Part shown: positions 24,891 to 64,000 of the stretch, piece after piece
How positions within the stretch are numbered: position 1 is the stretch's first letter
How the letters are laid out: the number at the start of each line of letters is the position of its first letter
NCBI GenBank assembly: GCA_030652035.1
Contig: JAUSBJ010000035.1
Location: 124,001 to 188,000 of the forward strand
Direction of reading: 5' to 3'
DNA: 64,000 nt
DNA from: Sulfurimicrobium sp.
GTDB lineage: Bacteria; Pseudomonadota; Gammaproteobacteria; Burkholderiales; Sulfuricellaceae
Notes under the pieces: model-generated
Seen by the model: only the letters and a program-made list of their open reading frames with translations
Told to the model about the DNA's origin: nothing
Database searches by the model: none
Translations under genes and position numbers: made by a program

Positions 24891-26582
<1,692 letters not shown>

Positions 26583-31393: not shown

Positions 31394-31430
31394 CATGCTC
31401 AAAGGCCACATCATAAAGAGGAGATCGACC

Positions 31431-42224: not shown

Positions 42225-42313
42225 GTAGGTCGTGTTTTAACCCGACATGTCGGGCTGAAGCCCGACCTACCAAAATTTGTATGCGATTGTAGGTCGGGCT
42301 TCAGCCCGACTAC
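42225..42313. repeat. REP palindromes 5' of RAYT gene
   Basis: Two REP units. The first (42225-42270) has GTAGGTCG...CCCGAC, then GTCGGGCTGAAGCCCGACCTAC. The second (42289-42313) is GTAGGTCGGGCTTCAGCCCGACTAC. Both share the GTAGGTCGGGCTTCAGCCC core and can fold into hairpins. They lie between lepB and the RAYT gene. Confidence 0.85.
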
Positions 42314-42330
42314 AGAACCCGGCCCCCACG

Positions 42331-42777
42331 ATGCCATACACACACCTCCGCAAAGGCAGGTTCTCCCAGACCGGAATGGTGTACCACATCACAACGGCCA
42401 CCCTTCACCGCACACCTCACTTTTCCGACCTCGCAAAAGGACGCAAGGTAGTCCAGGAATTGAAAACCCTGCAGGAACAAGGCAAAGCCGAAACACTGTG
42501 TTACGTCCTGATGCCGGACCACCTGCACTGGCTCATGGCCTTGCAGGATGGCGAGTTGTCCGGGATCATGCACCTGCTGAAAGGTCGCTCCGCCCGCGCC
42601 ATCGGATATTCACTTTGGCAAGCCAACTACTACGACCATGCCGTGCGGCAGGAAGAAGATTTACGCAAAATGGCGCGCTACATGGTGGCCAACCCGTTGC
42701 GCGCCAACCTGGTCAACAGCATCGGAGATTATCCGCTGTGGGATGCAGTCTGGCTGGATGACACCTTGTCGGGTTGA
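42331..42777 (+). CDS. REP-associated tyrosine transposase (RAYT)
   Basis: A 148-residue Y1 transposase of the IS200/IS605-related TnpA_REP group. The metal-binding HUH motif is HLH in VLMPDHLHWLMAL and the catalytic Tyr is probably in MARYMVANPLRA. ATG at 42331 gives the typical start MPYTHLRKGRFSQTGMVYHIT. REP sequences lie on both sides and one overlaps the stop codon. RAYT proteins bind and cut REP hairpins. The gene looks intact. Confidence 0.93.
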   Translation: MPYTHLRKGRFSQTGMVYHITTATLHRTPHFSDLAKGRKVVQELKTLQEQGKAETLCYVLMPDHLHWLMALQDGELSGIMHLLKGRSARAIGYSLWQANYYDHAVRQEEDLRKMARYMVANPLRANLVNSIGDYPLWDAVWLDDTLSG

Positions 42778-42855: not shown

Positions 42856-43632
42856 CTACTTAAACAGATACTGCCCATGTATGCTGCGCATGATCAGCAG
42901 CAATCCATAGGTGGTGAACAGCATCATGGCATAGGGCAATAGCGCAACCACCGCCCAGCGTTTCCCCCGCCAGGCCGGTTTATGGCGCAAGTGAAGTACA
43001 AAAGCATAAGCCACGATGGTGGCGAACGCCCAGCTCTCGATCGGGTCCCAGCCCCAGTAGCGGCCCCAGGCCAGGCTGGCCCAGTACGATCCGGCCGCCA
43101 CCATCGCCGCCCAGAGGAAGAAAGCCCAGCCCGCCAGCCTGCCCGCCAGTATCGCAGCATCCGGGCTATTGATGCGCCCCGCGAGCCAAGCCATGTGCAC
43201 GCCCGCCGCCAGTGTTCCCGCACCAATGGCGAAGGAATTGAGCTGGGCGTGGATAATCAGCCAGTTGGTGCGCAGCGACGGGTCCATGGGGAAAGCGCCC
43301 CGGCTATGGAACAAGGCCCATGCCACGCCCAGCCCCGCCACGCCCAAGGTCAGCAAACCCGCCGGGCGCAGCTCCGGCAGGCGCCACTGCACGGCAAGAA
43401 AGACCAGGGCCACCGCCAATGCATCCACCGTCAGATCTTCGTAACGGGTGATGATGGGAATCTGCCCGATATCCTGCCAGCGCAGGGAAAACAGGCCGAG
43501 GTGCAACAGGGCACCCAGCAGGGCAAGGGCAATGGCAAGGCGCTGCATGCGCACACTTGACGGCCAGAGCAGGATTGCCGCCCCCAGGTACAGGGCAGCG
43601 ATGCCACCCTGAATAACCGTGATTACGCTCAT
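42856..43632 (-). CDS. ccsA: CcsA/ResC-type cytochrome c synthase subunit
   Basis: A 258-residue membrane protein with about seven to eight helices and the haem-handling motif WGRYWGWDPIESWA. External His residues (HAQLNS, LHLRHK, SIHGQ) match CcsA. With ResB it forms the System II haem lyase that attaches haem to CXXCH in the periplasm. ATG overlaps the resB stop by 4 bp. The pair follows the 11-heme cytochrome gene and is probably cotranscribed with it. Confidence 0.92.
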   Translation of the reverse strand: MSVITVIQGGIAALYLGAAILLWPSSVRMQRLAIALALLGALLHLGLFSLRWQDIGQIPIITRYEDLTVDALAVALVFLAVQWRLPELRPAGLLTLGVAGLGVAWALFHSRGAFPMDPSLRTNWLIIHAQLNSFAIGAGTLAAGVHMAWLAGRINSPDAAILAGRLAGWAFFLWAAMVAAGSYWASLAWGRYWGWDPIESWAFATIVAYAFVLHLRHKPAWRGKRWAVVALLPYAMMLFTTYGLLLIMRSIHGQYLFK

Positions 43633-44882
43633 TCCCCTCTCTCCCACTCGCGCCACTGCCGCTCAAAGCGCCAGTCGTCGCGCAAGGTCCAGGATTCGAG
43701 CTGCCACTTGTCCCCGTCGCGCCGCAAGCGCAGGCGACGCGGAAAAACCAGAAGGTGCAGGGCGAACCCCGCCAGGGCCAGGACAATTCCGGCAAAAATC
43801 CACCTAACCATCTGACCCGAAGCAAGATACAGCCCCGCCCAGGGCACTGTGCCAATAAATTTCAACTGATACACGCCCAGATCGGCCACATCGCCCGGCG
43901 CCAGAGAGCCATCGAAGACTGGCTTGCCGAGGCGCTCGGCGACAAGGTGAAAACGCGGCGCATCGCCGGGCGTCAGGGCCATGCGGAAATTGACCGGCCG
44001 CTCCTCGAACATCATCACTTCATCGCGCTTCAGGGGGGTGCTCTTTCCCCAGGAATCCCGCGCCATCATGAAATTGATCAGCAGACGGCGGCGTTGCCCG
44101 TCCGGCAGGACACGCTCGAACACAGCCGTCTGCCCTACGTTCTTGTCCAGGTAAATCTGGTAGGCGCCGATTCTGGCCGGGTGATTCATCGCCAGGGTTT
44201 GCTGGTGTAAAGGGCCGCCCGCCTGCTGCAGCGACAGGCGGGCCTGCAATTCACGATAGCGTCCCCCTTCCATCTCCACCCGGAGTTCATCGAGACGCAG
44301 GCGGAAACCCAGCTCCCCATCCGGCAGGTGCGTGTCCCGATCCAGCAACAGCTTGCCTTTCGCCTCGCTCAGCACTTCCCCCTCGGCCAGTTCGAAATGA
44401 GCGCCCAGGCGCTGGGAAGCGTGGGCAGCGGCGGCCAGGATGATGATCACGACACCCACATGGAACAGCGGAAGTCCAGCCAGCCCCCATCCGCCGCGAT
44501 GCTGCCCACTCGGCCCGGCATCCTGCAAAGATGCAAGGGTGGGCGGCAGCGCGGTAAGTGAAAGTGTGCGGTTGGGCGTCTCTCCCCTGAACCAGGCCGA
44601 CAGGTAAGCCACGTGGGCCAAGGTGCCCGCCGTCAGATTCACGACCAGGGCAACGCAAAGCGCAAAAAATCCCGTCGATGCATATACGTCCGCCAGGCCG
44701 AGGCGCTCCAGCCACAAGGAAACCAAAGGCCAAGCCTGGTGCCAGGCATCCAGTTCCAGAGGCGACAGGCGCGAACTCTGCGGCAGAGTGCCGCCCGCGA
44801 TGGCGGCCAGGACCAGGCCGCCGATCAGGGCGAGCGCCAGGTCCGGAGATGCCAGCAGCCTGAAAAAGCGGCTTCTCAGCAA
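43629..44882 (-). CDS. resB: ResB/CcsB-type cytochrome c synthase subunit
   Basis: A 417-residue ResB protein: three N-terminal helices, a large periplasmic domain (about 155-355) and a last helix (WIFAGIVLALAGFALHLLVF). Motifs include GGTLPQ, FFALCVALVVNL, LFHVGVVIIIL and INFMMARDSWG. It begins 22 bp after the 11-heme cytochrome. It is the larger half of the System II lyase; a separate System I or II for the other cytochromes is not in the window. Confidence 0.92.
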   Translation of the reverse strand: MLRSRFFRLLASPDLALALIGGLVLAAIAGGTLPQSSRLSPLELDAWHQAWPLVSLWLERLGLADVYASTGFFALCVALVVNLTAGTLAHVAYLSAWFRGETPNRTLSLTALPPTLASLQDAGPSGQHRGGWGLAGLPLFHVGVVIIILAAAAHASQRLGAHFELAEGEVLSEAKGKLLLDRDTHLPDGELGFRLRLDELRVEMEGGRYRELQARLSLQQAGGPLHQQTLAMNHPARIGAYQIYLDKNVGQTAVFERVLPDGQRRRLLINFMMARDSWGKSTPLKRDEVMMFEERPVNFRMALTPGDAPRFHLVAERLGKPVFDGSLAPGDVADLGVYQLKFIGTVPWAGLYLASGQMVRWIFAGIVLALAGFALHLLVFPRRLRLRRDGDKWQLESWTLRDDWRFERQWREWERGE

Positions 44883-44903: not shown

Positions 44904-46907
44904 CTAGCAGGAACCCACGCCAGTGCCGGTGCCATGGCAGTCATTCCTGGCCCAGTTACCGCTCTGTATGGCATCGACATTCAGTGCGGAAGGTATGCCG
45001 TACACGCTGCTGCCATTGATGGGGTATTTGCTGTGGCTGTTATAGGGCGCAAGGTCGGGGGTGCCGGTACCATAGATCAAGAAGGCACGCCGCTTCCAGC
45101 CATGCGGCACGCCGGAATGACATGCCTGGCAGGGCATCTGGCGCAGCTCGATGTGGCGGTAATGGAGGTTTCTCATGGAACCACCGCCACCTCCACCGCC
45201 GCCACCTCCACCGCCACCAAGCCCGCTAAAACCGGTTTCCTGCCAAGTCCATGATGACCCTCCCGGACCGCCATAGACCGACGCTTTGTGGCACTTAAAA
45301 CACAAGTCGCCCTCGGTGCCGTTGACGCCGGTAGAACCGGTGTAAGGCGCCCACAGCAGCGGCCAGACATCCGATCCGTGCGGCCCCTTTGGCCCCGTTC
45401 CGGCCAAGTCGGCATTGGAATGGCATTCAACGCAGGTGAAGGTCGAGGTGGGCGTCATGCCTCCGATCAGCGAGGACTTATAATCGTAGACCACACCGCC
45501 CACCGTCATCTTGAAATCATTCTTGCCCACCGCCGCGACCGGGTGATAGGAGGCGTTGTTGGGGTTGAATTCCTGCGCCTGGTCGGTATTGACCCCGCCG
45601 GCAATGATGCCGTAGGGATCGGGCGGCGGGGTGGCGCCGAAAGCGTAATAGGAATGGCACTTGAGACAGATTTCGTGCTGGTACTGGGTGTCGTTCACCA
45701 CGTTGTACTGGGTGACCTGCCCCCATGGTCCCGGCCAGACCGGCTGCACCCCCCACACGCCCTTGAGCACGTTGGATGTGAGGTTATTGGTGACAGCGGG
45801 CATGCTGGGAGACACGCCGGGGGATGCCGCGTGGGGATTGTGGCAATCCGAGCATTCGGCGTGACGGCTGCCCAGCCCGATATCAACCACATCCTCGCGC
45901 ACCTTGCCGTCTAGCTGACGTTTAGGATTGTGCTTGCCGGAGATCGTTTTGGACGGGTGAACGTACGGCCTGTTCATCGCGGCGTCGATATTCTTGGTGG
46001 CGCTGGCGACAGAGCCGTTGTGGCATGCCAGGCACACCGCGGACTCGCCATCCTGCTTGAGGATTTGCCTTGGCCCGGCGCCGCTGTGGGGCTTGTGGCA
46101 GCTTTCGCAGCCATTGCTCTTGGGCGTGGAATTGGCGTTAAGCGCCAGGTTCTGCCCGGCAATATGGTAGGGATTGGTGCCGGTGCCGTTCCACTGGGCG
46201 ATGGAATTTCGGTGCGAATTGTTGGGAACGGTGTTCCAGTACTGCTTGTTGTGGCAGGACAGGCACATGGGTGAGCCAAAGCCGGCGCCATCGGTATAGC
46301 CTACATGCATGAACTTGGGATTGGCATCGCTATGCGCGTCATGGCAACTGGTGCACTGCATCAGGCCGGAGCCGTCGGGCTTGATCTTGCCCGTGAGCAA
46401 GGCGGGCGACACCAGTTCGAGGTTGGCCGCCGCCAAGGTGGCGTCGTAGGTGAAGGAAACCGGGTGGTCATTGCGCAAATCGGTACCCAGATTGGCCACT
46501 CCGGTCAGAAACATCTCCAGCCCGGAAATCGTGCCCGCCGTCTGCTGGCCGAAGGGCATGTTCTGCACCCCGCCCAGCGCCACCGTGCCATCGTGGCAGG
46601 TCAGGCATAATTTGGACGCGCCATTCGGCTGCCCCGGCGCGGCTGCCGCCAGCGTTTTACTGCTGTAAGGGGTATATATCTCCGCGGACAGTTTATGGTT
46701 CCACAGCGGCACGGCGGGATTGGTATTGTGCGGGGCGTGGCAGAACACACACAACTGTGTTTCGCTGGTCGCCTTGAAGGTGCCAGTCCCGGTGGCGGAA
46801 AGATTGTGCTTGGAGGTGGAGATGCCCGCCATGACGGGCGCAGTCCAGCCCAACAATCCGGGAACCAGCAAAATGGCGGTCAGCCATGCATAGTAGCGTG
46901 TTTTCAT
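44904..46907 (-). CDS. Eleven-heme secreted cytochrome c
   Basis: A 667-residue exported protein with 11 CXXCH motifs: CVFCH, CLTCH, CTSCH, CLSCH, CESCH, CLACH, CSDCH, CLKCH, CVECH, CFKCH and CQACH. It has long haem-free stretches, for example about residues 105-175 and 365-410, and doubled-CXXCH pairs typical of large multiheme proteins. A run of 13 Gly (about 564-576) separates the last haem domain, and the tail has a lone NDCHG with no partner Cys in CXXCH spacing. It is probably periplasmic or extracellular. NHL protein, small protein, this cytochrome, ResB and CcsA form one operon. Confidence 0.92.
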   Translation of the reverse strand: MKTRYYAWLTAILLVPGLLGWTAPVMAGISTSKHNLSATGTGTFKATSETQLCVFCHAPHNTNPAVPLWNHKLSAEIYTPYSSKTLAAAAPGQPNGASKLCLTCHDGTVALGGVQNMPFGQQTAGTISGLEMFLTGVANLGTDLRNDHPVSFTYDATLAAANLELVSPALLTGKIKPDGSGLMQCTSCHDAHSDANPKFMHVGYTDGAGFGSPMCLSCHNKQYWNTVPNNSHRNSIAQWNGTGTNPYHIAGQNLALNANSTPKSNGCESCHKPHSGAGPRQILKQDGESAVCLACHNGSVASATKNIDAAMNRPYVHPSKTISGKHNPKRQLDGKVREDVVDIGLGSRHAECSDCHNPHAASPGVSPSMPAVTNNLTSNVLKGVWGVQPVWPGPWGQVTQYNVVNDTQYQHEICLKCHSYYAFGATPPPDPYGIIAGGVNTDQAQEFNPNNASYHPVAAVGKNDFKMTVGGVVYDYKSSLIGGMTPTSTFTCVECHSNADLAGTGPKGPHGSDVWPLLWAPYTGSTGVNGTEGDLCFKCHKASVYGGPGGSSWTWQETGFSGLGGGGGGGGGGGGGSMRNLHYRHIELRQMPCQACHSGVPHGWKRRAFLIYGTGTPDLAPYNSHSKYPINGSSVYGIPSALNVDAIQSGNWARNDCHGTGTGVGSC

Positions 46908-47080
46908 AGCGGAAAGACTCCACTCAATGAATATGGTTTGTTTACAGTAATTTGCAGACCAGAAACCTGTAAGCCAGGCACTTCCTCCGGGAATGGAGAC
47001 TTCGCCTCTCGTCCCGGCGAGAAAACCTGACCTATCACGTAGGATTCCACCGGCTGCATCATAAAATCCAAGCTACTCAT
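46904..47080 (-). CDS. Small 58-residue protein between NHL and 11-heme genes
   Basis: A 58-residue frame, MSSLDFMMQPVESYVIGQVF at its start and NKPYSLSGVFPL at its end. Its ATG overlaps the NHL stop (GATGAGTAG), GGAG lies six bases upstream, and its TGA overlaps the ATG of the 11-heme gene. Tight coupling on both sides argues for a real gene in a gap of about 165 bp that otherwise lacks function. No signal peptide, Cys or helix is visible. It may be a short fragment of a lost domain. Confidence 0.5.
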   Translation of the reverse strand: MSSLDFMMQPVESYVIGQVFSPGREAKSPFPEEVPGLQVSGLQITVNKPYSLSGVFPL

Positions 47081-48152
47081 CCCGCTCTCCGAGATACTGG
47101 AATATTTGCACCCGTTTGTTGTACGAGTCCGCGACGTAAATCCGGTCCTGCGCATCGATCAGCAACCCGGCCGGCAGCCAGAATTCCCCGGCATCCTGGC
47201 CAGAAGTCCCCCAGAACAACAGCAGTTTCCCGGTTTCATCAAACACCTGGATATTATCAAAACCTGCATCGGCGACGTACACATGCCCTTCGCTATCCAG
47301 CGCCACGCCCTTGGGAGCGGAAAAATCGCCAGAACCATCACCGTTTTTTCCGAAGACAGACACCAGTTGCCCCTCGGCATCGAATATCTGGATGCGCATA
47401 TTCATGCTGTCCGTGACCACCAGCCGCCCCTGGCGATCCAGCGTGGCGAAGGTGGGGAAGTTGAATTGCCCGCGTTCCACGCCACGGCTGCCGATCACGC
47501 TGCGTATTGTCCCTGAAGGCAGGTCAAGCACCTTTATATCGTGGGCAGGTGTATCCACCACGTACAAGCGCTGCCGCGCACGGTCGATTGCCAGTGCCGA
47601 AGGGCGCTTGAGCCAGGGGGTGGTAGCAAGCATGCGGTCAAATTCACCGTCTGGTCTGAACACGAAAATCTTGTTCAGTTCACCATCCGCGACATAAATA
47701 TTGTCCTGGCCATCCACCGCCAACCCAATGGGCAGGCGCATGGATTCCATGTCACTGCCACGCAAGTGGCTATATTCACCCTGTCGGCGGTCGAAAATGT
47801 GCACCCGCCCCCTCAGGGTATCCGCCACCAGCAGCCGGTCCCGGCCATCAACTGCCACGGCCATGGGGCGCGCCACCTGCTCGTCCGCCTCCTCTCCGCG
47901 AATGAAATCCCACACCTTGCGCCAGAAACCTTTTTTGCGCCCGATATCCTCCGGATTGGCAACCGAGCCAAGATAGCGGATACGCGGCTGCAGCGGCGGT
48001 GAGGGCCATACCAGATCTGGTGCCGCAGCAGTTTGCTCCTTCGCTTGCGGAACAGTCTCGGCAGGTGGGGCTTCTTCTGCTCTGAGAGGTGTCGCCGTCA
48101 GCAGCAAAGCAGCGGCGACAACCAGAATTTTCATAATCGCTTGATGTAACAT
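47073..48152 (-). CDS. Secreted NHL-repeat beta-propeller protein (first copy)
   Basis: A 359-residue exported protein (signal ILVVAAALLLTATPLRAEE). After about 70 residues it has six NHL repeats, seen as MAVAVDGRDRLLVADTLRGR, GLAVDGQDNIYVADGELNKI, ALAIDRARQRLYVVDTPAHD, FATLDRQGRLVVTDSMNMR, GVALDSEGHVYVADAGFDN and GLLIDAQDRIYVADSYNKR. Such propellers often accompany multiheme cytochrome loci. ATG at 48152 follows GGAGAAAA. It heads the operon with the small protein, 11-heme cytochrome and ResB/CcsA. Confidence 0.9.
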   Translation of the reverse strand: MLHQAIMKILVVAAALLLTATPLRAEEAPPAETVPQAKEQTAAAPDLVWPSPPLQPRIRYLGSVANPEDIGRKKGFWRKVWDFIRGEEADEQVARPMAVAVDGRDRLLVADTLRGRVHIFDRRQGEYSHLRGSDMESMRLPIGLAVDGQDNIYVADGELNKIFVFRPDGEFDRMLATTPWLKRPSALAIDRARQRLYVVDTPAHDIKVLDLPSGTIRSVIGSRGVERGQFNFPTFATLDRQGRLVVTDSMNMRIQIFDAEGQLVSVFGKNGDGSGDFSAPKGVALDSEGHVYVADAGFDNIQVFDETGKLLLFWGTSGQDAGEFWLPAGLLIDAQDRIYVADSYNKRVQIFQYLGERDE

Positions 48153-48320: not shown

Positions 48321-51300
48321 TTACCTGTATAGCATATGCTTTTTGCGTGAGGTTTCGCCATGATAATATTTGTAGCGAAACAGCGCATCCAGGCCGTGGC
48401 AATCGGCACACAGCGAAAAATCGCTGGTATTTCTCAGGAAACTGCTGCGCGCGTCGCCCTCGACATTCCGGCCTTCGCCTTCCTCGGCTTTGAGCGGACT
48501 CCACTGATGGGCATTATGGCAAGTCGGGCAGGAGATGATGCCTGAGCCGCTGCGAACGCCATCGGGGGTATATACCGGAAAACTCCCGCCGCCCTCGCGT
48601 TGGCTGCCGGGATTGGAAATCACGTTGACCTTGGCCGGGTGGCTGCCCTTGACCGGCAGCTTGGCTGCGGCCACTTTGCCTGCGGCATGGCAGGAACGGC
48701 ACAGTCGTTCCATGGCATCATTGCCCTCTCCCGTCTGACGCGCCCACAGGCGCTCCTTGGCCACCGCATTATGCACCACGTGGCACTGTCCGCACACGCC
48801 GGATTGCTGCGTGTTCTGGCCGCGGATGTTGGTTTCCGCCGGCGCTGTGACGGAAAGATCGTGGTCCGTTTTTTTCACCTGCTGCTTGTTCTGGTGGCAG
48901 TTGGCACAGAGCTGGGGGGCAGGCCAGGCAGGCTGGCGCAGGAAACTGTCGGCTGCGCCGCCCTCCACATCGGCTTTTGCCCCGGCCTTGCTGCCGACAT
49001 CTGCAGGATCCCACTGGTGCAGGTTATGGCAGGTGGCGCAGGCAACCTTGCCGTTGACGTTATCCTTTTTACCTTCGGCGGTGTAAAGCGGCAGCGTGGT
49101 CTTTCCTCCGACATTCTTCAAGTCCACGCGTAGCGGATGGCTGTTGGCGCCGGTCTGTTTTTTCTCCGCCACGCCGCCGTCGCGGTGACATTCATTGCAC
49201 AGCACCTCGACGCCGTCCTGGCCAGGGCCGGTAGCGCGCGCCCACATTTTAGCGCCGTTGCCATTGTGCGGCAGGTGACAGGAGCCACATACGCCGGTTT
49301 CCGCCGTGGTCCGTCCCTTGGCGTTTTTCACCTCGGGCGCGGAAATGGCGAGATTGTGCTTGGACAGGGCGATCGGCCCCTTGTCCACATGACAGTTGGC
49401 GCACAAGGTCCCTTTGCTGTCGTTCGGCATGCGCAGGAAGCTGGTATCCCCCGTGCCCTTGGACTGGCGGGGGTCGCCGGATGGACTGCCCTTGGCCAGC
49501 GGCGACCAGTTATGGGGGTCGTGGCAGGTGCCGCAGAATACACTGCCGCCATCGGCCGCAGGCACCCCGCGATGATCGTACAGGGGCAGCACCTTGCCAG
49601 GCTGGCCAACGCTTTGCGGCGGCACAGTCCACTTCCCGTCCTTTGCCGTAATGCCGATATTGGCGATAGGCACATCCAGCGGATGGCTGTTGGCTCCAAT
49701 GGTTTTATCCTTTGCCACGCCCTGTGCGTTATGGCAACTCAGGCAGGTAGAAGAAACAGGGTCCACCCCGGCCAGCGGTTCACGCGCCCACATGCGTGCG
49801 CCCTTGCCGTTGTGGGGCAGGTGACAACTCGCGCAGACGCCGGTTTCGGCAGGCGTCTGCCCCTTGATATTGCGTTCTTCCGGTGCCATGACAGCCAGAT
49901 CGTGCTTGGTGTTGACGACGCCAAGCTTGTTTTTGTGGCAGGTCAGGCACAGGTCAGCCTCCGGGCCATTGGGCTTGCGCAGGAACTTGTTGCTGCCATC
50001 GCTATCTTCGCCCGGTTTCGAGGTTTTTTCCGGGTTGAGCGGGTCCCACTGGTGCGGATCGTGACAACTGGGGCAACTGATCCGCCCCTTGCTGTCGCCC
50101 ACTGACTTGACGCCATCCCGAGTATAGCCCGGCAGATCCACCGTCCCGCCCAGCCGCGCCATGTCGCGGCCCACCGGATGGGTATGCTGGCCGACTTGCT
50201 TGTCCTTGGCCAATCCGCCCTCGGTGTGGCAGGTCAGGCACAGATCGGCTACCGGGTCATCGCCTTGCTTCACCGTACGCGCCCACATTTTCGGCCCCTG
50301 CCCCCCATGCGGCAGATGACAGGCACTGCACACACCTGCCTGGCCCACTTCCTGGCTGCGTACATTCTTGTCTGAGTTATTGACCAGAGTCATGTCGTGC
50401 TTGCTGCTCGCCACCCGGCGCTGCTCGATGTGGCAATTCTGGCACAACTGGGATTGAGGATTGCGTTCCACCAGAAGCTTGCCCCCGTCCTCTGAAAAAT
50501 GCGGCTTGTGGCAAGTCTGGCAAATCACGGTGCCGCCCTCTCCCAGCTTCGCGCCCTTATCCAACAGGGTTTGGGGTATTTTCACCTTGTCGGGGCGAAT
50601 GTTGACCGGATGAGTGCCCATGCGTCCGGCCTCGGCGGGCGTATTGGCGTAGCGATCGGCATGGCAGATGCCGCACAGTTCCGAATTGGCATTTCTTACC
50701 AGCAGCTGTTTCTTCTCGGGAGCACCGTGGACGCGGTGGCAGGACTGGCAGATCACAGTGCCGCCGATTCCGATTTTCGCACCAGCCTCCATCAGCGCGT
50801 GTGGGGTGTCCTTCATTTTCTTTTGTATCGGATGGTTACCCTCTTCCGGTCCGGTGCCGCGTTCCAGGTGGCAGGCCATGCACATGGCGGAATCGGCATT
50901 TTTCATGCGCATGAACACGGTGGCATGCTTATCCCCCCACGCCACCCCATGCGCACTATGGCAGGTGCCGCAATACACCTTCCCATCCTCGTTGAGCGGA
51001 AACACCATCTTGCCCTCGGCCGTGGGAATTTTCACCTTGTCGGACGGCTTGACGCCGATGGGGTGAAAATTCTGTCGATTTTGCCATGCAAACCGGGAGT
51101 CAAGCACGAAGCCATCATGGCAGGAAAAGCACATGCGATCGGTGCTCACCACATCCTGCTTGCCGGTTGCTTCCACCGGCCTGGGGTTGTATGCGATCAG
51201 CGGTGTTACATCCTTGCGGTTGAAATCGACCAGCCATGCGATGTGGCAGTTGGCGCATTCACGCTGGGGGGAAATATCTCGCGCCGCCTCAGCGCCACGC

Positions 51301-51383
51301 ACCATGCCGAACATGAACATGAACATCAGCGCCAGTTGCATTGCCAGTCCAGCGCCGCGACTCCCTTTCAGACGAATGAACAT
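48321..51383 (-). CDS. 24-heme secreted cytochrome c with tandem tetraheme repeats
   Basis: A 1020-residue exported protein (signal AMQLALMFMFMFGMVRGAEA) with 24 CXXCH motifs. The first eight lie in an N-terminal part with two copies of GGTVIC..CH. Four tetraheme repeats follow, starting near residues 352, 517, 699 and 864. Each has GVC.(A/S/Q)CH(L/V)(P/V)H(G/N), then (L/T)C..CH, then SCP/GTCH.PH.W.PL, then LC..CH...KHDL. ATG at 51383 follows GGAG at eight bases; an upstream in-frame extension has no signal peptide. It lies 135 bp after the triheme B gene, probably the same operon. It could form a long haem wire. Confidence 0.93.
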   Translation of the reverse strand: MFIRLKGSRGAGLAMQLALMFMFMFGMVRGAEAARDISPQRECANCHIAWLVDFNRKDVTPLIAYNPRPVEATGKQDVVSTDRMCFSCHDGFVLDSRFAWQNRQNFHPIGVKPSDKVKIPTAEGKMVFPLNEDGKVYCGTCHSAHGVAWGDKHATVFMRMKNADSAMCMACHLERGTGPEEGNHPIQKKMKDTPHALMEAGAKIGIGGTVICQSCHRVHGAPEKKQLLVRNANSELCGICHADRYANTPAEAGRMGTHPVNIRPDKVKIPQTLLDKGAKLGEGGTVICQTCHKPHFSEDGGKLLVERNPQSQLCQNCHIEQRRVASSKHDMTLVNNSDKNVRSQEVGQAGVCSACHLPHGGQGPKMWARTVKQGDDPVADLCLTCHTEGGLAKDKQVGQHTHPVGRDMARLGGTVDLPGYTRDGVKSVGDSKGRISCPSCHDPHQWDPLNPEKTSKPGEDSDGSNKFLRKPNGPEADLCLTCHKNKLGVVNTKHDLAVMAPEERNIKGQTPAETGVCASCHLPHNGKGARMWAREPLAGVDPVSSTCLSCHNAQGVAKDKTIGANSHPLDVPIANIGITAKDGKWTVPPQSVGQPGKVLPLYDHRGVPAADGGSVFCGTCHDPHNWSPLAKGSPSGDPRQSKGTGDTSFLRMPNDSKGTLCANCHVDKGPIALSKHNLAISAPEVKNAKGRTTAETGVCGSCHLPHNGNGAKMWARATGPGQDGVEVLCNECHRDGGVAEKKQTGANSHPLRVDLKNVGGKTTLPLYTAEGKKDNVNGKVACATCHNLHQWDPADVGSKAGAKADVEGGAADSFLRQPAWPAPQLCANCHQNKQQVKKTDHDLSVTAPAETNIRGQNTQQSGVCGQCHVVHNAVAKERLWARQTGEGNDAMERLCRSCHAAGKVAAAKLPVKGSHPAKVNVISNPGSQREGGGSFPVYTPDGVRSGSGIISCPTCHNAHQWSPLKAEEGEGRNVEGDARSSFLRNTSDFSLCADCHGLDALFRYKYYHGETSRKKHMLYR

Positions 51384-51518
51384 GCATCGCTCCGCAATCT
51401 GGGCACGGAAACCCGATTCGCCAGTATTTCCGCCCCAGCCATACCTTTGCCGGCCTGGAGGCGCAAGGCCCATGGCACCCATCTCCCGGCTACCTGGCGC
51501 AACACATCACGACCCACC

Positions 51519-52607
51519 TTACGGCGCCGTAGCTGCCTTGGGTGGCGTATCGAAGGCGTTGCGCCACCAGCCGCGCGGATCACGCTTCATTTCCTCAGCC
51601 GAGGGTTCCGGCGCCTTCTCGGACGTGCCAAACAGGACCCCCTGGCGGGACTTGCTGGCATCATCAAGGAAAATGGTAGGGATGTAGAATTCCTTGTACT
51701 TCTGCGTGATACCGATGATGTTCACATTGGTCAGAGCAGAGATGCGTTTATCGGAAAAACCAAGTGCGCGGAATGGCAAGAAACTTTCCTTCTCGGGGGC
51801 GTGGCAACGGGTGCAGAAGCGTCCAACTGGGTTCACCTGGCTATGGAAGGCTTTCTTGATCGACCCCATGTCCTGGTCGGAAAGCTGACTGCGCAGCTTG
51901 ACGAATTCCTGCGCTTCAGGCGCATCCTCGGTGATCTCCAGCAAAGCCTCCCGCCCGTTGATATTGGAATAGGCCACCACCTTGGAGTAGAAATCGTCGG
52001 TCTCGAGCAGGAAACCTGTCGCCGGGTCAACATCCAACCCGTATGGCTTGCCCTTCACCTCGATTCCCGAATAGTTGAGCCAGCGTAGAGTCATGGAGCT
52101 TTCCGGCACCTTGCGGTCGTCGGTATGGCAGGTCATGCAGCCAATGAATTGGGTGTGCATATTGAGCAGGGTACGTATCATCGGCTTTTTCGCGTGCGGA
52201 TATTCGCTATGGCAGGTATAGCAGATCGGTCGTTTCCCCAGTGTCAGGGGGTCGACCTTGGGCAAATTGTGGAAGTGCTTGATTTTTTCCTTCTGCCGCT
52301 CAATATCCAGCCTTTCCAGAAGCTTTGGCGCCTCGGGCTCTTTTTCCTGGCCTCCGCCCATCATGGAATAGACGGATGAGGCAAGCAAAACGGCAATGAT
52401 GATCCACAACAGAAAAGACACCATCCACGCCCAGATCGGGTGGTTGCGGCGCAGGCCGGAAATACTGAAGATGTCTCGCCTGATCTCGCCCGGGATGCGT
52501 GCCTTGTGGTCAATAATGATCAGCAGCGCGATGGCAAAGAGGAGGAACATCACCACTGCCAGCGCAATAAAATAACTATCGAGTTCAACGGTATGATGCA
52601 TGGTCAA
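51519..52607 (-). CDS. Triheme membrane cytochrome c (module B)
   Basis: A 362-residue protein with two N-terminal helices (LDSYFIALAVVMFLLFAIAL and WAWMVSFLLWIIIAVLLASS) and a periplasmic domain carrying CYTCH, CMTCH and CTRCH. A conserved C-terminal motif, LGFSDKRISALTN....YKEFYIP, also occurs in the module A and C trihemes. It is the last member of octaheme B-cytochrome b-small protein-triheme. Its likely role is handing electrons from the cytochrome b to soluble cytochromes. Confidence 0.9.
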   Translation of the reverse strand: MTMHHTVELDSYFIALAVVMFLLFAIALLIIIDHKARIPGEIRRDIFSISGLRRNHPIWAWMVSFLLWIIIAVLLASSVYSMMGGGQEKEPEAPKLLERLDIERQKEKIKHFHNLPKVDPLTLGKRPICYTCHSEYPHAKKPMIRTLLNMHTQFIGCMTCHTDDRKVPESSMTLRWLNYSGIEVKGKPYGLDVDPATGFLLETDDFYSKVVAYSNINGREALLEITEDAPEAQEFVKLRSQLSDQDMGSIKKAFHSQVNPVGRFCTRCHAPEKESFLPFRALGFSDKRISALTNVNIIGITQKYKEFYIPTIFLDDASKSRQGVLFGTSEKAPEPSAEEMKRDPRGWWRNAFDTPPKAATAP

Positions 52608-52778: not shown

Positions 52779-53696
52779 CTAATCATGAGGTTGTGTCCCC
52801 CACATTTTTTTGCTCTCGATCAGTTTCCTGAGATAGCTGCGCTCCTCAGGCATGGTCACGATACAGCGCAGATATTCGAGAAAATGCTCCTCGATCTGGT
52901 GTTCACGCGTGATTTTTCCGGTGAGGAAGGTCCATTGCATGGGGAAGCGTCCAGGTGCCAAATGGACGTTGTACCAATGCCAGAATGCGATCACCAGCAA
53001 GGCAAGCAGGGCTTCATGGGGATGGGATAGGCGCATCATTTCCTGAAAGTGCGACGCCATCTCCACCGGCAGAATGCTGGCCCAGACATCGGGAAACAGG
53101 AAGGTCGATCCGGAAATCACCATCACCGTGTTGCCGAAACCTGCAGCAAAATAGTGAATTTTCTGCTTGTACATGAATTTGTCCATTTCCGGACGTACTG
53201 GGCGCTTGCCTCTGAAAAACTGCATATCCTCCTTGAAATCGCGAATGTCCTTCCATACCGGCAGGATGGTGCGCCGCAATTCAAATACGCGGGCACGCAG
53301 CTTCAACAGCGAGCCAAGACCGATGGTGACAAAGTGATAAAGCATGGCAAAAATCATGGCTGCTGCGAGCGTGCGATGTATCACCCGCGTCACTTCCAGT
53401 CCACCCAGCACAGAGTTGAACGGTTCTGCCCAGAAAGCGGTGTTGTAGTGGATAGGCAAGCCAGTAAAGGCCAGCAACAGGAAAGTACTGAAAATCAGCA
53501 AATGCTGAATGCGGATATGGATGTTGTAGCGGTAGAAATCGCCAATCGGGTTCGAATCCACATTTTTGTATAGCACCGAGCGGTCATCCGGCAACAGTGC
53601 GACCACTTCTTCAATATCGCGATCCTCCTCCGGACTCACCCTGTTGTGGCGCTTTGCGGTGTCCAGCACCTCGCGTGCTTCTTGTGATAATTTCAT
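52779..53696 (-). CDS. Four-helix cytochrome b (module B)
   Basis: A 305-residue membrane cytochrome b of the FdnI/HydC (b561-like) type. Four helices are seen with His ligand candidates in RIQHLLIFS, VIHRTLAAAM..LYHF and HPHEALLALLVIAFWHWYNVH. It has about 60 extra N-terminal residues compared with the module A and C copies, and no Cys-rich domain. In such complexes quinol is oxidised at the membrane and electrons are passed to c haems. It follows the octaheme B gene after a gap that holds a REP-like sequence. Confidence 0.9.
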   Translation of the reverse strand: MKLSQEAREVLDTAKRHNRVSPEEDRDIEEVVALLPDDRSVLYKNVDSNPIGDFYRYNIHIRIQHLLIFSTFLLLAFTGLPIHYNTAFWAEPFNSVLGGLEVTRVIHRTLAAAMIFAMLYHFVTIGLGSLLKLRARVFELRRTILPVWKDIRDFKEDMQFFRGKRPVRPEMDKFMYKQKIHYFAAGFGNTVMVISGSTFLFPDVWASILPVEMASHFQEMMRLSHPHEALLALLVIAFWHWYNVHLAPGRFPMQWTFLTGKITREHQIEEHFLEYLRCIVTMPEERSYLRKLIESKKMWGTQPHD

Positions 53697-53863: not shown

Positions 53864-54976
53864 TCAGGGAAGGCGGTTGCTATTGCGCCGGGTGCGCCGC
53901 CACCACGATGATCCATCACGGAAGCGCCAGCTTACGCCATCCCGTAGACGCCCCCAGGTTTCGAATGCGGCCATCCCCACCAGCAATAGCAGTACGCTAT
54001 CGCCCACGATGGTATAGATCAGCTCGGCATAATGCTTGAAGGGGTTATCCTCCCTCTTGCTGGTGGGATGCGGATCGAGCTCGGCATAGTTCTTGTCGGC
54101 TCTGACGTGGCACTGCTTGCAGGTCTCCACCCGGTTCTCAGCACTGACCGGTGAGTTCGGGTCCCGCGAAGGCAGCAATTCATGCACGCTGAGATAGTAA
54201 TTCACGGTTTTTGCATGACAATCCAGGCAGTTGGCCGCCTTGGTATTGCCATACTTGGTCACCTTGCCGTGAAAGCTTTCCTCGTAGGATTCGATCGCGA
54301 AAGGGAATTTCCGGCCGAGCTCGCGTCCCTCTTCTTTGGCCGCTTGCTGGTGACGATCCAGCATCTGCTTGTCGGCATGGCACGATGAGCACATTGCGAC
54401 GATTTCCTGGGACGAACGCTTGACCTCACGAATGCGTCGGCTGGTGTGGTTGTACCACTTCTCAGCAAATTTGGCATCCTCGTGGCAGACCACGCAGCGG
54501 TCAATGATGTGCTTGGGAGGTTTATCCTCCTTGGCGTTGTAGAGCGGGTTGGTATGGCAGTTGACGCAATAAGGCTTGTCGGCGTCATTGCCCTTGGCGA
54601 TTTTTTCCCGGCCATGGACGCTTTTCTTAAAGGCATCATAAATTGGTTTGTGGCTGAACGGCTTGCCGGTGGCAGGATTTTTGATCGAATGGCACTCTGC
54701 GTTGCAGGTCACACCTTCAGTAACGGGCTTGTGCGGCAACTCCTTGATGTAACTGTGGCAATCGCGACAAGGCACATTACGGTGCACGGTTTTTGAAAAA
54801 ACGTTCGGCATAATATAGTACGTTTTTTGCAAACCATCTTCGGTAACACGCCCCATTTTCGGGTATTTGTGGCACATCAGGCAGGCCTCGTCATCCTCGA
54901 AAGCCAAAGCCGCCCCGGCATACCCCAGAAACAGGGATAACATGCCCGCAACGCACCATCTGATAAGCATCTCCAT
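53864..54976 (-). CDS. Octaheme cytochrome c, membrane-tailed (module B)
   Basis: A 370-residue exported protein. Haem motifs in order: CLMCH, CRDCH, CNAECH (CX3CH), CVNCH, CVVCH, CSSCH, CLDCH and CKQCH. A C-terminal helix (LIYTIVGDSVLLLLVGMAAF) anchors it. Shared family segments are GKPFSHKP and YEESFHGKVTKYGN before haem 7. Unlike the module A and C copies, its eighth motif is ordinary CX2CH. The gene leads the module B set. Confidence 0.92.
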   Translation of the reverse strand: MEMLIRWCVAGMLSLFLGYAGAALAFEDDEACLMCHKYPKMGRVTEDGLQKTYYIMPNVFSKTVHRNVPCRDCHSYIKELPHKPVTEGVTCNAECHSIKNPATGKPFSHKPIYDAFKKSVHGREKIAKGNDADKPYCVNCHTNPLYNAKEDKPPKHIIDRCVVCHEDAKFAEKWYNHTSRRIREVKRSSQEIVAMCSSCHADKQMLDRHQQAAKEEGRELGRKFPFAIESYEESFHGKVTKYGNTKAANCLDCHAKTVNYYLSVHELLPSRDPNSPVSAENRVETCKQCHVRADKNYAELDPHPTSKREDNPFKHYAELIYTIVGDSVLLLLVGMAAFETWGRLRDGVSWRFRDGSSWWRRTRRNSNRLP

Positions 54977-55559: not shown

Positions 55560-56531
55560 TTACTTTGCTTTCGATGTTTCGGCCCAATCCACCTTCGGGT
55601 CCGAAGATTGCCCCGGTTTACCCCTCCCTCCCTCTGACCAGGCCGCGCCTGTGCCCGGCAGCAGGAACTTGGGAATATGGAAATCGCTGTATTTATGCAA
55701 CATTCCCACAACCTCGGTATTGGTCAGTTGCTGTATCCGGCGCGGCGGATAACCGAGTTCTGCAAATGGAATATATGGCGTCTGCGATGAAGTATGGCAG
55801 CCGTCGCACAAAAGCGGCTTCTCATCCACCATGCGGTGAATCACTTTCTTCATCTTGGACTGCTCGGTGGTGCTGAGGCCTTCCTTGTTTTTCAGGTAGT
55901 CCGTTACGAATGCTCTTTCACGCTCCCCATTCAGGAAGCGGAAACTGCCATCGGCTGCCAAGGTTCCCGGTGCAATCTTGGTTCCATAGTTGCCATATTT
56001 CTCCTTTTCAGTTGCGACCAGCTCCGGAGGATTGGCCACTACCTGACCATTTGCCTTGTCATACCAACGGAACGCCCACGGTCCCTGATTCGGTTTCTGC
56101 CGAATGTGGCAGGTTTCGCAGGCAACGAAAAATGCATGCATATTCAGAAAGGCGCGTATGGGCTTCGACTTGTCATGAGGCACTGCACCATGGCAGCGCG
56201 TGCACACATTGGTTTCGTCAGGTTCCACCAACATCCCGATATGGTGGAAGTGGCCCTTCACGTACTGTTCTTTCACGACGGTATAACCGAGGTCTGTGGT
56301 GGCCGTCGCTTTCTGTTCCTTCATGACCTTCTTCAACGCCTCTTCTTCAAATGACGCTGCTTCGGGTGATTTAACCGTGGTGCCAAAAACCTGCACTTCC
56401 GCCGGCGGTTCTTCATGATGATCCGCATGGCTGAAGATAATCGGGTAAATGAAATTACCGTACCATAGCGCGAAAACGATCAGGGCGATTGCGTAGAGCT
56501 TGCCTATAAGTTTTTTGAATCGACTATACAT
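55560..56531 (-). CDS. Triheme membrane cytochrome c (module A)
   Basis: A 323-residue protein with one N-terminal helix (LYAIALIVFALWYGNFIYPI) and three haem motifs CTRCH, CETCH and CDGCH. The conserved C-terminal motif is LGYPPRRIQQLTN....YSDFHIPK, as in modules B and C. GGAGAAATAT precedes the start. It is the last gene of octaheme A-cytochrome b-triheme, ended by the terminator at 55497-55537. Confidence 0.9.
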   Translation of the reverse strand: MYSRFKKLIGKLYAIALIVFALWYGNFIYPIIFSHADHHEEPPAEVQVFGTTVKSPEAASFEEEALKKVMKEQKATATTDLGYTVVKEQYVKGHFHHIGMLVEPDETNVCTRCHGAVPHDKSKPIRAFLNMHAFFVACETCHIRQKPNQGPWAFRWYDKANGQVVANPPELVATEKEKYGNYGTKIAPGTLAADGSFRFLNGERERAFVTDYLKNKEGLSTTEQSKMKKVIHRMVDEKPLLCDGCHTSSQTPYIPFAELGYPPRRIQQLTNTEVVGMLHKYSDFHIPKFLLPGTGAAWSEGGRGKPGQSSDPKVDWAETSKAK

Positions 56532-56546: not shown

Positions 56547-57347
56547 TTAGTGGTGCTGAGGCTTGATCTCGTCCTGCAGGCCTTGTTCTGTCATGATCCG
56601 CACATATTCCGCATAATGCTCGTGAATCATGTCGGCTTCAGTGAGATATCCGGTAATGAACACCGTCCCCAAGGGAAACTTTTCGGGCGAGTAATGCACG
56701 TTGTACCAATGGACGAAGAACAGGAACAGCGCCGCCAGCAAGGCTTCGTCGGTATGCATGATGTAGAAGGCGTTCATCGCGATGCCGGGAAGGATGTGGC
56801 TGAACTCATCCCGCCACCAGAGAACGAAACCTGCCGGCCCCAGGATGGGTATGCCCCAGTAAGGCGCGTAGTAGTCGAACTTCTCCTTCCAGGACATGCG
56901 GTCATAGCGCGGCGGCCGGTTAGTGAAATACAACAGATACTTGAACATATCGATCAGGTCGTAGAAGTCTTTCTTGTTCGGGACCATCTCCTGGGCCAGG
57001 AATTCCCTGCCAATATTGCCCAAAGTTAGACGCCCTTCCTTCTTCAGTCGCAGCACCCGCCGGGTATAGAACAGATACATCCAGTAAATGGTGTGGTAGA
57101 CGAACAAGCCGAGCAATATGGATCCGACGATACGGTGAATCGTCGGCGCATGATCAATCCCGCCCAATGCGTTATAGATGGGCTCCGCCCATGGCTGATC
57201 GTGGTATTTCAGCGGGAACCCGGTTAACGACAGCGTGATCACCGTAGTGAACAAAACAATGTGCTGCAAACGTTGATGGAGCGAGAACCGGTAGAAATAT
57301 CTCCGCCCGTTTCTTTCACATATTATCGGATATTTTGGCATGGCCAT
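56547..57347 (-). CDS. Four-helix cytochrome b (module A)
   Basis: A 266-residue membrane protein with four helices and His in FSLHQRLQHIVLF, IHRIVGSILLGLFVYHTIY and HTDEALLAALFLFFVHWYNVH. The C-terminal HWYNVHYSPEKFP followed by EHYAEYVRIM is shared with module B and C cytochromes b. A longer TTG start at 57353 is possible. The gene lies 38 bp after octaheme A. Confidence 0.9.
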   Translation of the reverse strand: MAMPKYPIICERNGRRYFYRFSLHQRLQHIVLFTTVITLSLTGFPLKYHDQPWAEPIYNALGGIDHAPTIHRIVGSILLGLFVYHTIYWMYLFYTRRVLRLKKEGRLTLGNIGREFLAQEMVPNKKDFYDLIDMFKYLLYFTNRPPRYDRMSWKEKFDYYAPYWGIPILGPAGFVLWWRDEFSHILPGIAMNAFYIMHTDEALLAALFLFFVHWYNVHYSPEKFPLGTVFITGYLTEADMIHEHYAEYVRIMTEQGLQDEIKPQHH

Positions 57348-57385
57348 TTTCAAGTAACCCTCAATCAGTTCACATTTACGACATG

Positions 57386-58456
57386 TTATTTGGAGGAGTG
57401 GTGATCATCATCCGGCGGCTTCCTGAAAGAGAAGTTCGGAAAGAGCCTCCTCAGCAGTTCCAGAATAATGAGAACCATGAAGAAGTACATCACGCCCGCC
57501 ATTAACGCCGTGAAAAACTTCAACATGTAATGCTGCAAGGGGTATTTGTCCTTGTCATAGGTGACATGAACCTGGAAACCGGCCAGTTTCGGGCCTGCTT
57601 TCTCATGGCACTCGGAGGTACGGCAGGTCGTCGGAACATTCTGCTTGTTGCTGGCCGATGTCGGGGAGTCCTGACCCTCGATGAAGTGCACGCTCTCACC
57701 CTTGACCACGTGGCAATCCATGCAGTCTGGCGTTTCCTCTGAGCCAAAGCGAATCGCCTTATAGTGGAATGTTTCCTTGTAGGAGGTGACTACATCGTCA
57801 AGATCGTGCCGCTGCTGGAACCCCTTGTCGCCGTGGCATTTGGCGCAGATACCCACAATTTCTGTCGGCTTGCGCATTTTTTGCAGGCGCGAGGTTACGT
57901 GTTTGTAGAAGGATTCAGCGAAATTACCCGTGCTGTGACAGGTCTTGCAGCGACTGAGCCCTCTCTCGGATATTCCAGGGGCCTTGCCTTTGAAAAAGGA
58001 TAAGGGGCGGTACAAAGGCTCTTCGTGGCAATCCTTGCAGCCGGGGTAGTCCTGCTGGTGCTCCTTGGCATTGCCTTCAGCATCAAGCTTGCCGTGAACA
58101 CTCTTGGCCAACAAATCCGCCACTGGCTTATGAGAGAATTTTTTCTGACCTGACGGCTCGGTCAGGTGGCACTCGGTGGTGCAGTCCACTTTCTTGGCGG
58201 GATCGTGGGGGATCTTGCTGATATCCTGATGACAATCCATACACTTCACCCGGACATGAGGGCCCTCCTCAAACAACGCTTCGTTGATGTAAAACAGACG
58301 GAAATTGCCGTTTTCATCAATGCGGCTCAAGCCTCGATGCTTGTGGCAGAGAACGCAGTTCAGTTCGTCCTCGGCATAAGTTTCCCCTCCCGCCCCGAAA
58401 AGAAGCAAGGCAGCGAAAAACAAAATCACACGAGTTTTGAATGATGACTTACCCAT
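57386..58456 (-). CDS. Octaheme cytochrome c, membrane-tailed (module A)
   Basis: A 356-residue exported protein (signal VILFFAALLLFGAGGETYA). Haem motifs in order: CVLCH, CMDCH, CTTECH (CX3CH), CKDCH, CKTCH, CAKCH, CMDCH and CRTSECH (CX4CH). The C-terminal helix is FFTALMAGVMYFFMVLIILE. ATG at 58456 has AAGG at eight bases; ATG at 58462 is the alternative. A perfect FNR-type box lies about 209 bp upstream. Confidence 0.92.
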   Translation of the reverse strand: MGKSSFKTRVILFFAALLLFGAGGETYAEDELNCVLCHKHRGLSRIDENGNFRLFYINEALFEEGPHVRVKCMDCHQDISKIPHDPAKKVDCTTECHLTEPSGQKKFSHKPVADLLAKSVHGKLDAEGNAKEHQQDYPGCKDCHEEPLYRPLSFFKGKAPGISERGLSRCKTCHSTGNFAESFYKHVTSRLQKMRKPTEIVGICAKCHGDKGFQQRHDLDDVVTSYKETFHYKAIRFGSEETPDCMDCHVVKGESVHFIEGQDSPTSASNKQNVPTTCRTSECHEKAGPKLAGFQVHVTYDKDKYPLQHYMLKFFTALMAGVMYFFMVLIILELLRRLFPNFSFRKPPDDDHHSSK

Positions 58457-58829
58457 TGACATGGCCTTATATTTTTTGGTCTCTTTTTTAGTTGAACTCG
58501 TGCTGCATGCGCGTGCATGACGGTCCAACACTACCCTGGCGATGCCGCTTCAGGGTTCAAACCCGCCAACTACCGCACACTCCAAGCACCGCCAACCTGC
58601 CCGCCAGTACACCGCATAAAGGCGCATCCAGTTTATTCGGGCACTCCCTATAAACAACTTGATGTAGATCAATAATTCTAAACAATGGGATCAGAAGATC
58701 ATATTGTCTTAATAAAAAACAAGCAAGTCCTTACTCTTCACCATTCCCTTATGCAGTGACGATGAAATAACAAAAATCAATAAAGAACACTTCAGGCGGC
58801 GCTGCTATCCACCGTAATCAGCGCAAATG
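58457..58829. other. Intergenic region upstream of module A
   Basis: About 370 bp with no gene. It holds a perfect FNR-type box (58659-58672). The stretch from 58670 to 58790 is AT-rich, and the part from 58500 to 58630 would form the module A leader. No recognisable riboswitch consensus was found. Confidence 0.55.
58659..58672. promoter_or_regulatory. Perfect FNR/DNR-type box upstream of module A
   Basis: TTGATGTAGATCAA matches TTGAT-N4-ATCAA at every defined position. It lies in the long intergenic region before octaheme A, about 209 bp from the start codon, which implies a long leader or a promoter further from the gene. Confidence 0.8.
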
Positions 58830-59418: not shown

Positions 59419-60405
59419 TTGATGAGGGCAGGAATGCAGAAGATAAGTGGGTTTGGCATGCGTGTTTGGCATGCCGCATTTCGGCGATGTTCGCAATTAG
59501 GCATCACAACCCTACTGATTGTTTGGGCGGCCACATCAAGTGCTGCCGGCATACCCACCGCAGGCGTTCGCCATTTGTTCGACATCACCGGGCAGGGCGC
59601 TGGCGGACTATCGCTGCCGACCGACGTGGCAGTCAGCAGCGACGGCCGTATATTTATTGTAGATGGCGGCAACCATCGAGTGGTTGCTTTTGATCACAAT
59701 GGAAAATATCTCCTCACCATTGGCCGCAAGGGGTCTGGAGAGGGTCAGATGAAGGATCCAGTCGGCATCGGGGCCGATGGAAAAGGGCGTATCTATGTAG
59801 CCGACACAGGCAACCACCGCATCCAGGTATTCGCTTCAGATGGGCGATTTCAATATGCATTCCCGGTTGTCGAAAGTGGTCTGGCGATACGCCCTATAGA
59901 TGTAGCAACGGATGTCACGGGCACAAAGATTTTCGTGAGCGGCAACAATAATCACAAAATCATGGCATTTGCAGCGCCAGGCAGGCTTGTCGGCAAGTGG
60001 GGGGGGAACGGTGAGAGTGGAGGATTGTTCCGCTATCCTGCATCTGTTGCTCTATCCTCAGAAGGGGATGTCTATATAGCTGATGCGCTTAATTCCCGCG
60101 TGCAGGGATTCGACGAACTGGGTGCATTGCTTATTCAGGTTGGAGCCTGGGGCGTTCTCCCTGGCCAACTCTTCCGCCCCAAGGGCGTGGCTATCGACAG
60201 TAAACAAAACATCTACATCAGCGACAGCTATATGGATGTAGTTCAGGTTTATGACAGTGAAGGCCGATTCTTGCACGTTCTGGGCCAAGACGGTAAGCCG
60301 CAGCGATTTGTGTCCGCAGGCGGAATCGCCATCGGTAGCGACAACCGGCTTTACACCGCCGAGATTTTACGCAACAAGGTATCGGTCTATAGCCTGAATG
60401 ATTGA
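59419..60405 (+). CDS. Secreted NHL-repeat beta-propeller protein (second copy)
   Basis: A 328-residue protein with an N-terminal signal-like segment (LGITTLLIVWAATSSAAG). Six NHL repeats follow: DVAVSSDGRIFIVDGGNHRV, GIGADGKGRIYVADTGNHRI, TDVTGTKIFVSGNNNHKI, SVALSSEGDVYIADALNSR, GVAIDSKQNIYISDSYMDV and GIAIGSDNRLYTAEILRN. It parallels the NHL gene at 47.1-48.2 kb but is not identical. It lies upstream of module C in the same orientation, separated by a 319-bp structured gap. Confidence 0.88.
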   Translation: MMRAGMQKISGFGMRVWHAAFRRCSQLGITTLLIVWAATSSAAGIPTAGVRHLFDITGQGAGGLSLPTDVAVSSDGRIFIVDGGNHRVVAFDHNGKYLLTIGRKGSGEGQMKDPVGIGADGKGRIYVADTGNHRIQVFASDGRFQYAFPVVESGLAIRPIDVATDVTGTKIFVSGNNNHKIMAFAAPGRLVGKWGGNGESGGLFRYPASVALSSEGDVYIADALNSRVQGFDELGALLIQVGAWGVLPGQLFRPKGVAIDSKQNIYISDSYMDVVQVYDSEGRFLHVLGQDGKPQRFVSAGGIAIGSDNRLYTAEILRNKVSVYSLND

Positions 60406-61939: not shown

Positions 61940-61940
61940 G

Positions 61941-63937: not shown

Positions 63938-64000
63938 TCACTTGTTGTGGCAGTTGTTGCAAATCTGCGTCCCCGCGCCAATGCGCAGCCTCTTGTAACC
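63938..64000 (-). CDS. 3' end of another c-type cytochrome gene
   Basis: At the right edge the minus strand encodes a C-terminal tail GYKRLRIGAGTQICNNCHNK and then stops (TGA at 63938-63940). CNNCH is a haem-binding motif, so the gene continuing beyond the window is very likely another c-type cytochrome. Nothing further can be said about its size. Confidence 0.7.
   Translation of the reverse strand, partial: GYKRLRIGAGTQICNNCHNK

Follow-up and report, generated by a model that had tools for sequence, protein, structure and literature searches.

Electrons may cross the periplasm on their way to filaments either by free shuttles or through one bridging protein. The window, here the whole stretch of 64,000 nucleotides of a Sulfurimicrobium sp. 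contig that was analysed, contains the gene for a 24-haem cytochrome. The source genome comprises 3.27 Mb in 51 contigs, with a completeness of 89.9%. The cytochrome ORF runs on the minus strand from an ATG at 51383, immediately preceded by GGAG, to 48321 (Table 1), and an alternative ATG further upstream would yield a product of 1053 aa; a plus-strand reading of the same interval was rejected on account of its many stops. The protein contains exactly 24 CXXCH motifs between residues 43 and 992, or 42.5 residues per haem (1020/24), and begins with a hydrophobic, signal-like stretch, with no further membrane helix seen by eye. Doubled-CXXCH and cytochrome c7/c3 domains are assigned by Pfam, and only the generic doubled-CXXCH domain lies above the cut-off in NCBIfam. 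Promoter and terminator scans at the locus were level with the shuffled background, and a search for plasmid copies of the gene gave no match.

Table 1. The 24-haem cytochrome gene, its parts and the surrounding genes (coordinates in the window)
Feature	Coordinates	Strand	Basis or remarks
CcsB/ResC-like cytochrome c maturation protein	42856-43656	minus	
ResB-like cytochrome c maturation protein	43629-44882	minus	
11-haem cytochrome	44904-46907	minus	residues 15-221 match OmcE (7tfs, E 7.2e-32)
Second NHL beta-propeller	47073-48152	minus	downstream of the 24-haem gene
24-haem cytochrome gene	48321-51383	minus	1020 aa; 7 stretches matching Pfam Paired_CXXCH_1 (E 1.6e-52)
Unit R4 and C-terminal cap, residues 858-1020	48324-48812	minus	unit identity and shuffles; unit tree
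Unit R3, residues 693-857	48813-49307	minus	unit identity and shuffles; AF2 of R2-R3
Unit R2, residues 511-692	49308-49853	minus	unit identity and shuffles; AF2 of R2-R3
Unit R1, residues 346-510	49854-50348	minus	unit identity and shuffles
8-haem head (modules D1-D4) preceded by signal-like stretch, residues 1-345	50349-51383	minus	module comparison
Probable NHL gene remnant, 138 bases	51384-51521	minus	between 3-haem and 24-haem genes; local alignment
3-haem cytochrome, N-terminal membrane helix (module a)	51519-52607	minus	
Cytochrome b, Ni_hydr_CYTB/formate-DH-gamma type (module a)	52779-53696	minus	
7-haem cytochrome, C-terminal membrane helix (module a)	53864-54976	minus	
3-haem cytochrome (module b)	55560-56531	minus	
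Cytochrome b (module b)	56547-57353	minus	
6-haem cytochrome (module b)	57386-58531	minus	
NHL beta-propeller	59419-60405	plus	type directly preceding the big cytochrome in relatives
6-haem cytochrome (module c)	60725-61939	plus	
Cytochrome b (module c)	61875-62672	plus	
3-haem cytochrome (module c)	62605-63444	plus	
8-haem cytochrome, 3' end	63938-64000	minus	gene runs past the window; whole gene L095:1438-2466:-

Tetrahaem repeats and haem ligands

Haems 9, 13, 17 and 21 begin at residues 352, 517, 699 and 864, and the repeat periods are therefore 165, 182 and 165 residues, exactly as a sequence-only reading of this DNA had described for a 24-haem protein with four tetrahaem repeats, without naming the strand. 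The four units, R1 to R4, hold only 16 of the 24 haems, while haems 1 to 8 constitute a head. Pairwise identity among the units is 38-46%, or 33-43% once the CXXCH columns are removed, and their Smith-Waterman scores lie 14-29 standard deviations above 500 shuffles in which every CXXCH was fixed in place and, for masked units, 18-53 above shuffles. With identity and scores so far above the shuffles a chance origin was rejected, and both the duplication of a tetrahaem unit and the homology above background that the earlier reading had called for are borne out. When the twelve dihaem modules are compared with one another, modules 5 to 12, from residue 342 onward, alternate in an A-B-A-B checkerboard; the repeating unit is therefore genuinely tetrahaem and consists of two dissimilar dihaem halves. 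The head has dihaem repeats of its own (modules 2-4, z 5-10), set apart from the A-B units.

Across 21 aligned 24-haem members all 24 CXXCH motifs are invariant, as are 21 further histidines, and two more occur at 90% or above, which gives 23 distal histidines per 24 haems. Module D1 carries two haems and one conserved distal histidine. From this conservation we infer that every haem except one carries two His ligands.

Relationship of the repeat unit to OmcE

Each unit presents its landmarks in the order KHDL-CxxCHxPH-LW-CxxCH-HPV-CxTCHDPH-FLR-CxxCH, colinear with OmcE. When aligned from KHDL, R1 to R4 and the OmcE-like proteins agree in the order of the haem motifs, the four distal histidines and further landmarks, and the OmcE-like proteins stop where the repeat unit continues through a short linker to the next KHDL. 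This colinearity, distal histidines included, was found in every one of the units R1 to R4, to which the comparison was confined. A 97-row profile of the 24-haem family, spanning two units, matched OmcE best in the PDB (7tfs, 7.5e-12; then 9yuq, 1.6e-9), followed by 6r2q (3.9e-5), which is MtrABC according to PMC9473688, and OmcS (7.9e-5). The OmcE-like proteins aligned with the units in hhalign at 99.4% (E 3.6e-21) across their full mature length. With CXXCH masked the alignment remained colinear at 59.8% (E 8.8e-5) and a score of 35.3, where the highest of 30 column shuffles reached 18.6. Among the control families from the same locus, masked likewise, the 8-haem family scored 29.4 through a short match of 47 columns only, and the 7-haem (14.6), 6-haem (10.5) and 3-haem (9.8) families were at background.

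AF2 modelled units R2-R3 well (pLDDT 92.3, pTM 0.87). Of the 11 chains set against this model, OmcE matched it best in structure, with an rmsd of 2.6 over 126 residues and a Z of 5.4, which falls under the VIA-align caution line of 8. OmcS and an S-layer undecahaem cytochrome both gave Z 3.1; three of the 11 chains reached Z 2 or more, a result that does not exclude families outside the list. The full-length model was poor (pLDDT 61.9, pTM 0.45, residues 23-109 below 50). Foldseek returned no match at E 0.001 for either model, the R2-R3 model giving one meaningless match at E 8.3. On these models a likeness of the units to OmcE in fold is weakly indicated, and is weaker than that in sequence.

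The repeat unit is likely to be homologous to OmcE, and identical haem packing in the two is plausible. OmcE of Geobacter sulfurreducens (7tfs) is, however, a separate polymerising tetrahaem subunit with a free-standing form of ~200-230 aa, whereas the present protein joins four units and a head in one polypeptide, and because it is a 1020-aa fusion it was not classed as OmcE.

Gene neighbourhood

The most constant neighbours of the family are the NHL propeller and the module of 6/7-haem cytochrome, cytochrome b and 3-haem cytochrome. An NHL propeller gene is located upstream of the big cytochrome in 62 of the 69 loci with 1.5 kb of upstream sequence, and a 6/7-haem cytochrome together with cytochrome b (the bc module) in 54 of the 60 with 5.5 kb. 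These loci are not independent, since five were retrieved via the 7-haem protein and some share a genome; without the five, the counts are 57/64 for NHL and 49/55 for the bc module. Of 58 loci, 31 have an 8-haem homologue no more than 7.5 kb upstream, and in others it lies downstream. The outer part of the locus varies, as an OmcE-type or 11-haem-type ORF was found in only 26 of the 36 loci flanked by 7 kb each way. In Thiobacillus-type loci one strand encodes an NHL protein, an OmcE-like protein, a porin-like protein, a PQQ-type propeller, the 8-haem and 7-haem cytochromes and cytochrome b, and continues with a 3-haem cytochrome, an NHL protein, the big cytochrome, a second NHL protein, an 11-haem cytochrome, ResB and CcsB. 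Components for the entire path between the quinone pool and the cell exterior are included in this run. In four loci from the Desulfosediminicola phylum (L149, L150, L151 and L154) the cytochrome b and 3-haem proteins are fused in one ORF, and L150 carries a larger, 15-haem version of the 8-haem homologue.

In the genome studied here the NHL gene that usually precedes the big cytochrome is absent from that position. The interval 51384-51521, at the equivalent of which relatives carry NHL, aligns with the NHL protein encoded at 59419-60405 with a score of 57 (300 shuffles: mean 27, maximum 47), and is probably what is left of such a gene. A frame extension in the relative L005 also resembles the C-terminus of NHL (score 50, shuffles at most 37). 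Beyond the 8-haem gene, which crosses the window's end, the minus strand further encodes a PQQ-type propeller, a 613-aa porin-like protein, an OmcE-like 4-haem cytochrome and an NHL protein (L095). The porin-like protein matches no Pfam family above cut-off, its barrel being judged by eye, and the OmcE-like tetrahaem protein (226 aa) matches 7tfs over nearly its whole length (E 1.3e-31).

Another 5-haem ORF of OmcE-like appearance, recognised by eye, lies ~20 kb past the window (L009:528-1259); its start is signal-like and it contains an RHDL motif. An IS200-like transposase gene (Y1_Tnp, 42277-42777) adjoins the cluster, and by eye a similar-looking ORF occupies the matching place in L028 and L030. 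What look by eye like a cd1-type nitrite reductase gene (24891-26558, minus strand) and a periplasmic nitrate reductase cluster (27043-31913, plus strand) are also encoded in the window, and the host is therefore probably a denitrifier.

Distribution and length evolution of the family

Members of the family carry six phylum labels, and 79 loci were retained from 112 relatives in named genome contigs. The gene is present in six of the 22 genomes of the host's taxonomic family, one of them (G302) with a weak partial match only; homologues occur in two genomes placed in the host's genus. Cultured carriers include Noviherbaspirillum denitrificans TSA40 (L044) and Desulfosediminicola flagellatus (L088). 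In wider samples at E 1e-20, with the host genome included, it was found in two of 300 genomes of the order and one of 398 of the phylum.

The earlier suggestion that homologues with other repeat numbers be sought proved fruitful, with three, four, five and seven units found. Among 77 distinct complete ORFs, the present one included, 72 encode 18 (n=31), 20 (n=12), 22 (n=6), 24 (n=21) or 28 (n=2) haems, the other five having 9, 12, 14, 16 and 21. The 12- and 9-haem ORFs are the two parts of a single split member in a gammaproteobacterial MAG (L057:11394-14417), through a broken gene or an assembly error. The general pattern is D1 and two to four more dihaem modules, followed by three, four or five AB units, which a few 20- to 22-haem members fit less cleanly. 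A member from a genome of the Desulfosediminicola phylum (L154:11777-16696) has 38 haems in 1639 aa and comprises seven AB units together with a head-like module inside the chain. An apparent segmental duplication in this member comprises the head-like module and two AB units. Two ORFs lie upstream of its gene, one with 25 haems that begins like a lipoprotein and one with 16 haems.

When 69 units taken from 19 homologues were placed in a tree, nearly all last units formed one clade across phyla (support 1.0), the exception being the fourth unit of L035, and the inner units of L034 (Desulfobacterales) were separate from those of beta- and gammaproteobacteria. The protein tree (69 rows), a quick build with warnings on long branches and composition, places 24-haem members in at least three separate positions. 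Taken together, the two trees suggest that 24 haems were attained more than once in the evolution of the family. Two Nitrospirota members fall within the betaproteobacterial group (support 98) of the protein tree, which hints at transfer.

Proposed function

The favoured reading, with a probability of about 0.55, is that the 24-haem protein is a secreted, soluble, covalently fused OmcE-type wire that crosses the periplasm from the quinone-linked module to the outer membrane. OmcE is described as polymerising outside the cell, with His shared between subunits (PMC9473688, PMC12954529), and as having a rise of 34 angstrom (PMC12954529). In the fused protein the His given by the neighbouring subunit in OmcE would come from the unit that follows within the polypeptide, and in the final unit His1008 of the conserved C-terminal tail would supply the missing one, with all 24 haems forming one linear chain along a single polypeptide. 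If each unit adds the rise of OmcE, the wire would be ~20 nm long (24/4 x 34 angstrom), enough to cross the periplasm, which is typically ~20-30 nm wide, and its length would be set by the repeat number. Electrons would pass between the inner-membrane, quinone-linked 7-haem/cytochrome b/3-haem module and the outer-membrane 8-haem, porin-like and OmcE-like parts, with uptake slightly likelier than export in the presumed sulfur-oxidising denitrifier host. More tentatively, and at less than even odds, the protein may be a nanowire of fixed, encoded length, in which a head starts and a cap terminates a series of fused OmcE-type subunits. Its length would evolve by whole tetrahaem steps, together with dihaem steps in the head, from 18 to 38 haems, or ~15 to 32 nm if the packing is OmcE-like, matching the width of the periplasm, and it would load the OmcE-type filament encoded in the same locus.

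The sequence-only reading had seen in this protein either the electron acceptor of the neighbouring module or an extracellular wire. The partnership agrees with the synteny of the bc module, while the extracellular placement now appears the less likely part. A protein that leaves the cell, or is bound to its surface, and extends or caps OmcE-type filaments would be in keeping with the resemblance of its units to an extracellular filament subunit, with the OmcE-like gene and the 11-haem OmcE-like fusion in the same locus, and with the still longer extracellular cytochromes reported for PCC3 in PMC5566968. A lipobox-like motif, however, is present in only four of 78 complete homologues by a loose pattern, it is the inner-membrane module and NHL that accompany the gene constantly, and no OmcE- or 11-haem-type ORF was found in 10 of the 36 well-flanked loci, all of which makes an extracellular wire unlikely, at perhaps one chance in four. 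An electron store (capacitor) or loose shuttle in the periplasm, bridging no membranes, would profit from the large capacity of many bis-His haems, and such a role is weighed alongside conduction for large cytochromes in the Gallionellaceae study (PMC10734462). Storage alone would need neither the ordered tetrahaem register nor the C-terminal cap unit shared across phyla nor the narrow set of lengths, and this explanation is improbable. An oxidoreductase acting on a soluble substrate at one catalytic haem, for which the D1 haem apparently lacking a distal His could be adduced, is very improbable, as 23 of the 24 expected distal histidines are conserved or nearly so in 21 sequences and the unit profile resembles nitrite reductases in the PDB only weakly and across a short stretch (4.3e-6, ~50 residues).

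Comparison with known systems and significance

The idea of a multihaem wire spanning the periplasm is not new, having been proposed for PCC3, whose very long, repeated periplasmic cytochrome carries 21-27 haems (PMC5566968, PMC10734462). Membership in PCC3 was rejected, as its cytochromes have 22-39 residues per haem (PMC5566968), against 42.5 here, and its inner-membrane motifs (two WX3HX13H, SGXXG) occur in none of the window's three cytochromes b, the genes checked for them. Compared by gene composition only, Geobacter Cbc5 (CbcEDCBA) is likewise an operon that brings together a 7-haem cytochrome, a cytochrome b and a long cytochrome, but CbcC has 12 haems and CbcD two (PMC7894505, PMC11434368), where the present locus has 24 and three, plus NHL. 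The Uet cluster of Tenderiales/Gallionella, also likened by composition only, shares 4-haem, 11-haem and NHL proteins and, if the porin-like protein is one, a porin, but as described in PMC10734462 it lacks a 24-haem protein and has a PPIase (UetB) and 3-haem periplasmic proteins (UetDEG). In OetABI, from syntrophic sulfate reducers (PMC10553843), a porin-cytochrome conduit likewise stands beside filament cytochromes, as it may here. The 24-haem cytochrome of Geoalkalibacter, with 1,208 aa and fibronectin domains (PMC12016550), is unlike the present protein in make-up. A survey of multihaem cytochromes (PMC11475568) and PMC5371394, PMC13264449, PMC9769857 and PMC6295460 were also consulted. 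No description of a tandem-fused OmcE-type cytochrome was found in the literature searched, a partial coverage that does not prove such a protein unpublished.

The present system differs from the known ones in its OmcE-type unit, the tandem fusion of that unit, a family whose length changes stepwise, and its gene set. The variation of length by whole units across lineages allows the choice between free shuttles and a bridging protein to be tested directly, and a single-chain OmcE-like wire of defined length, if real, would be a more uniform object for studies of conductivity than a polymer.
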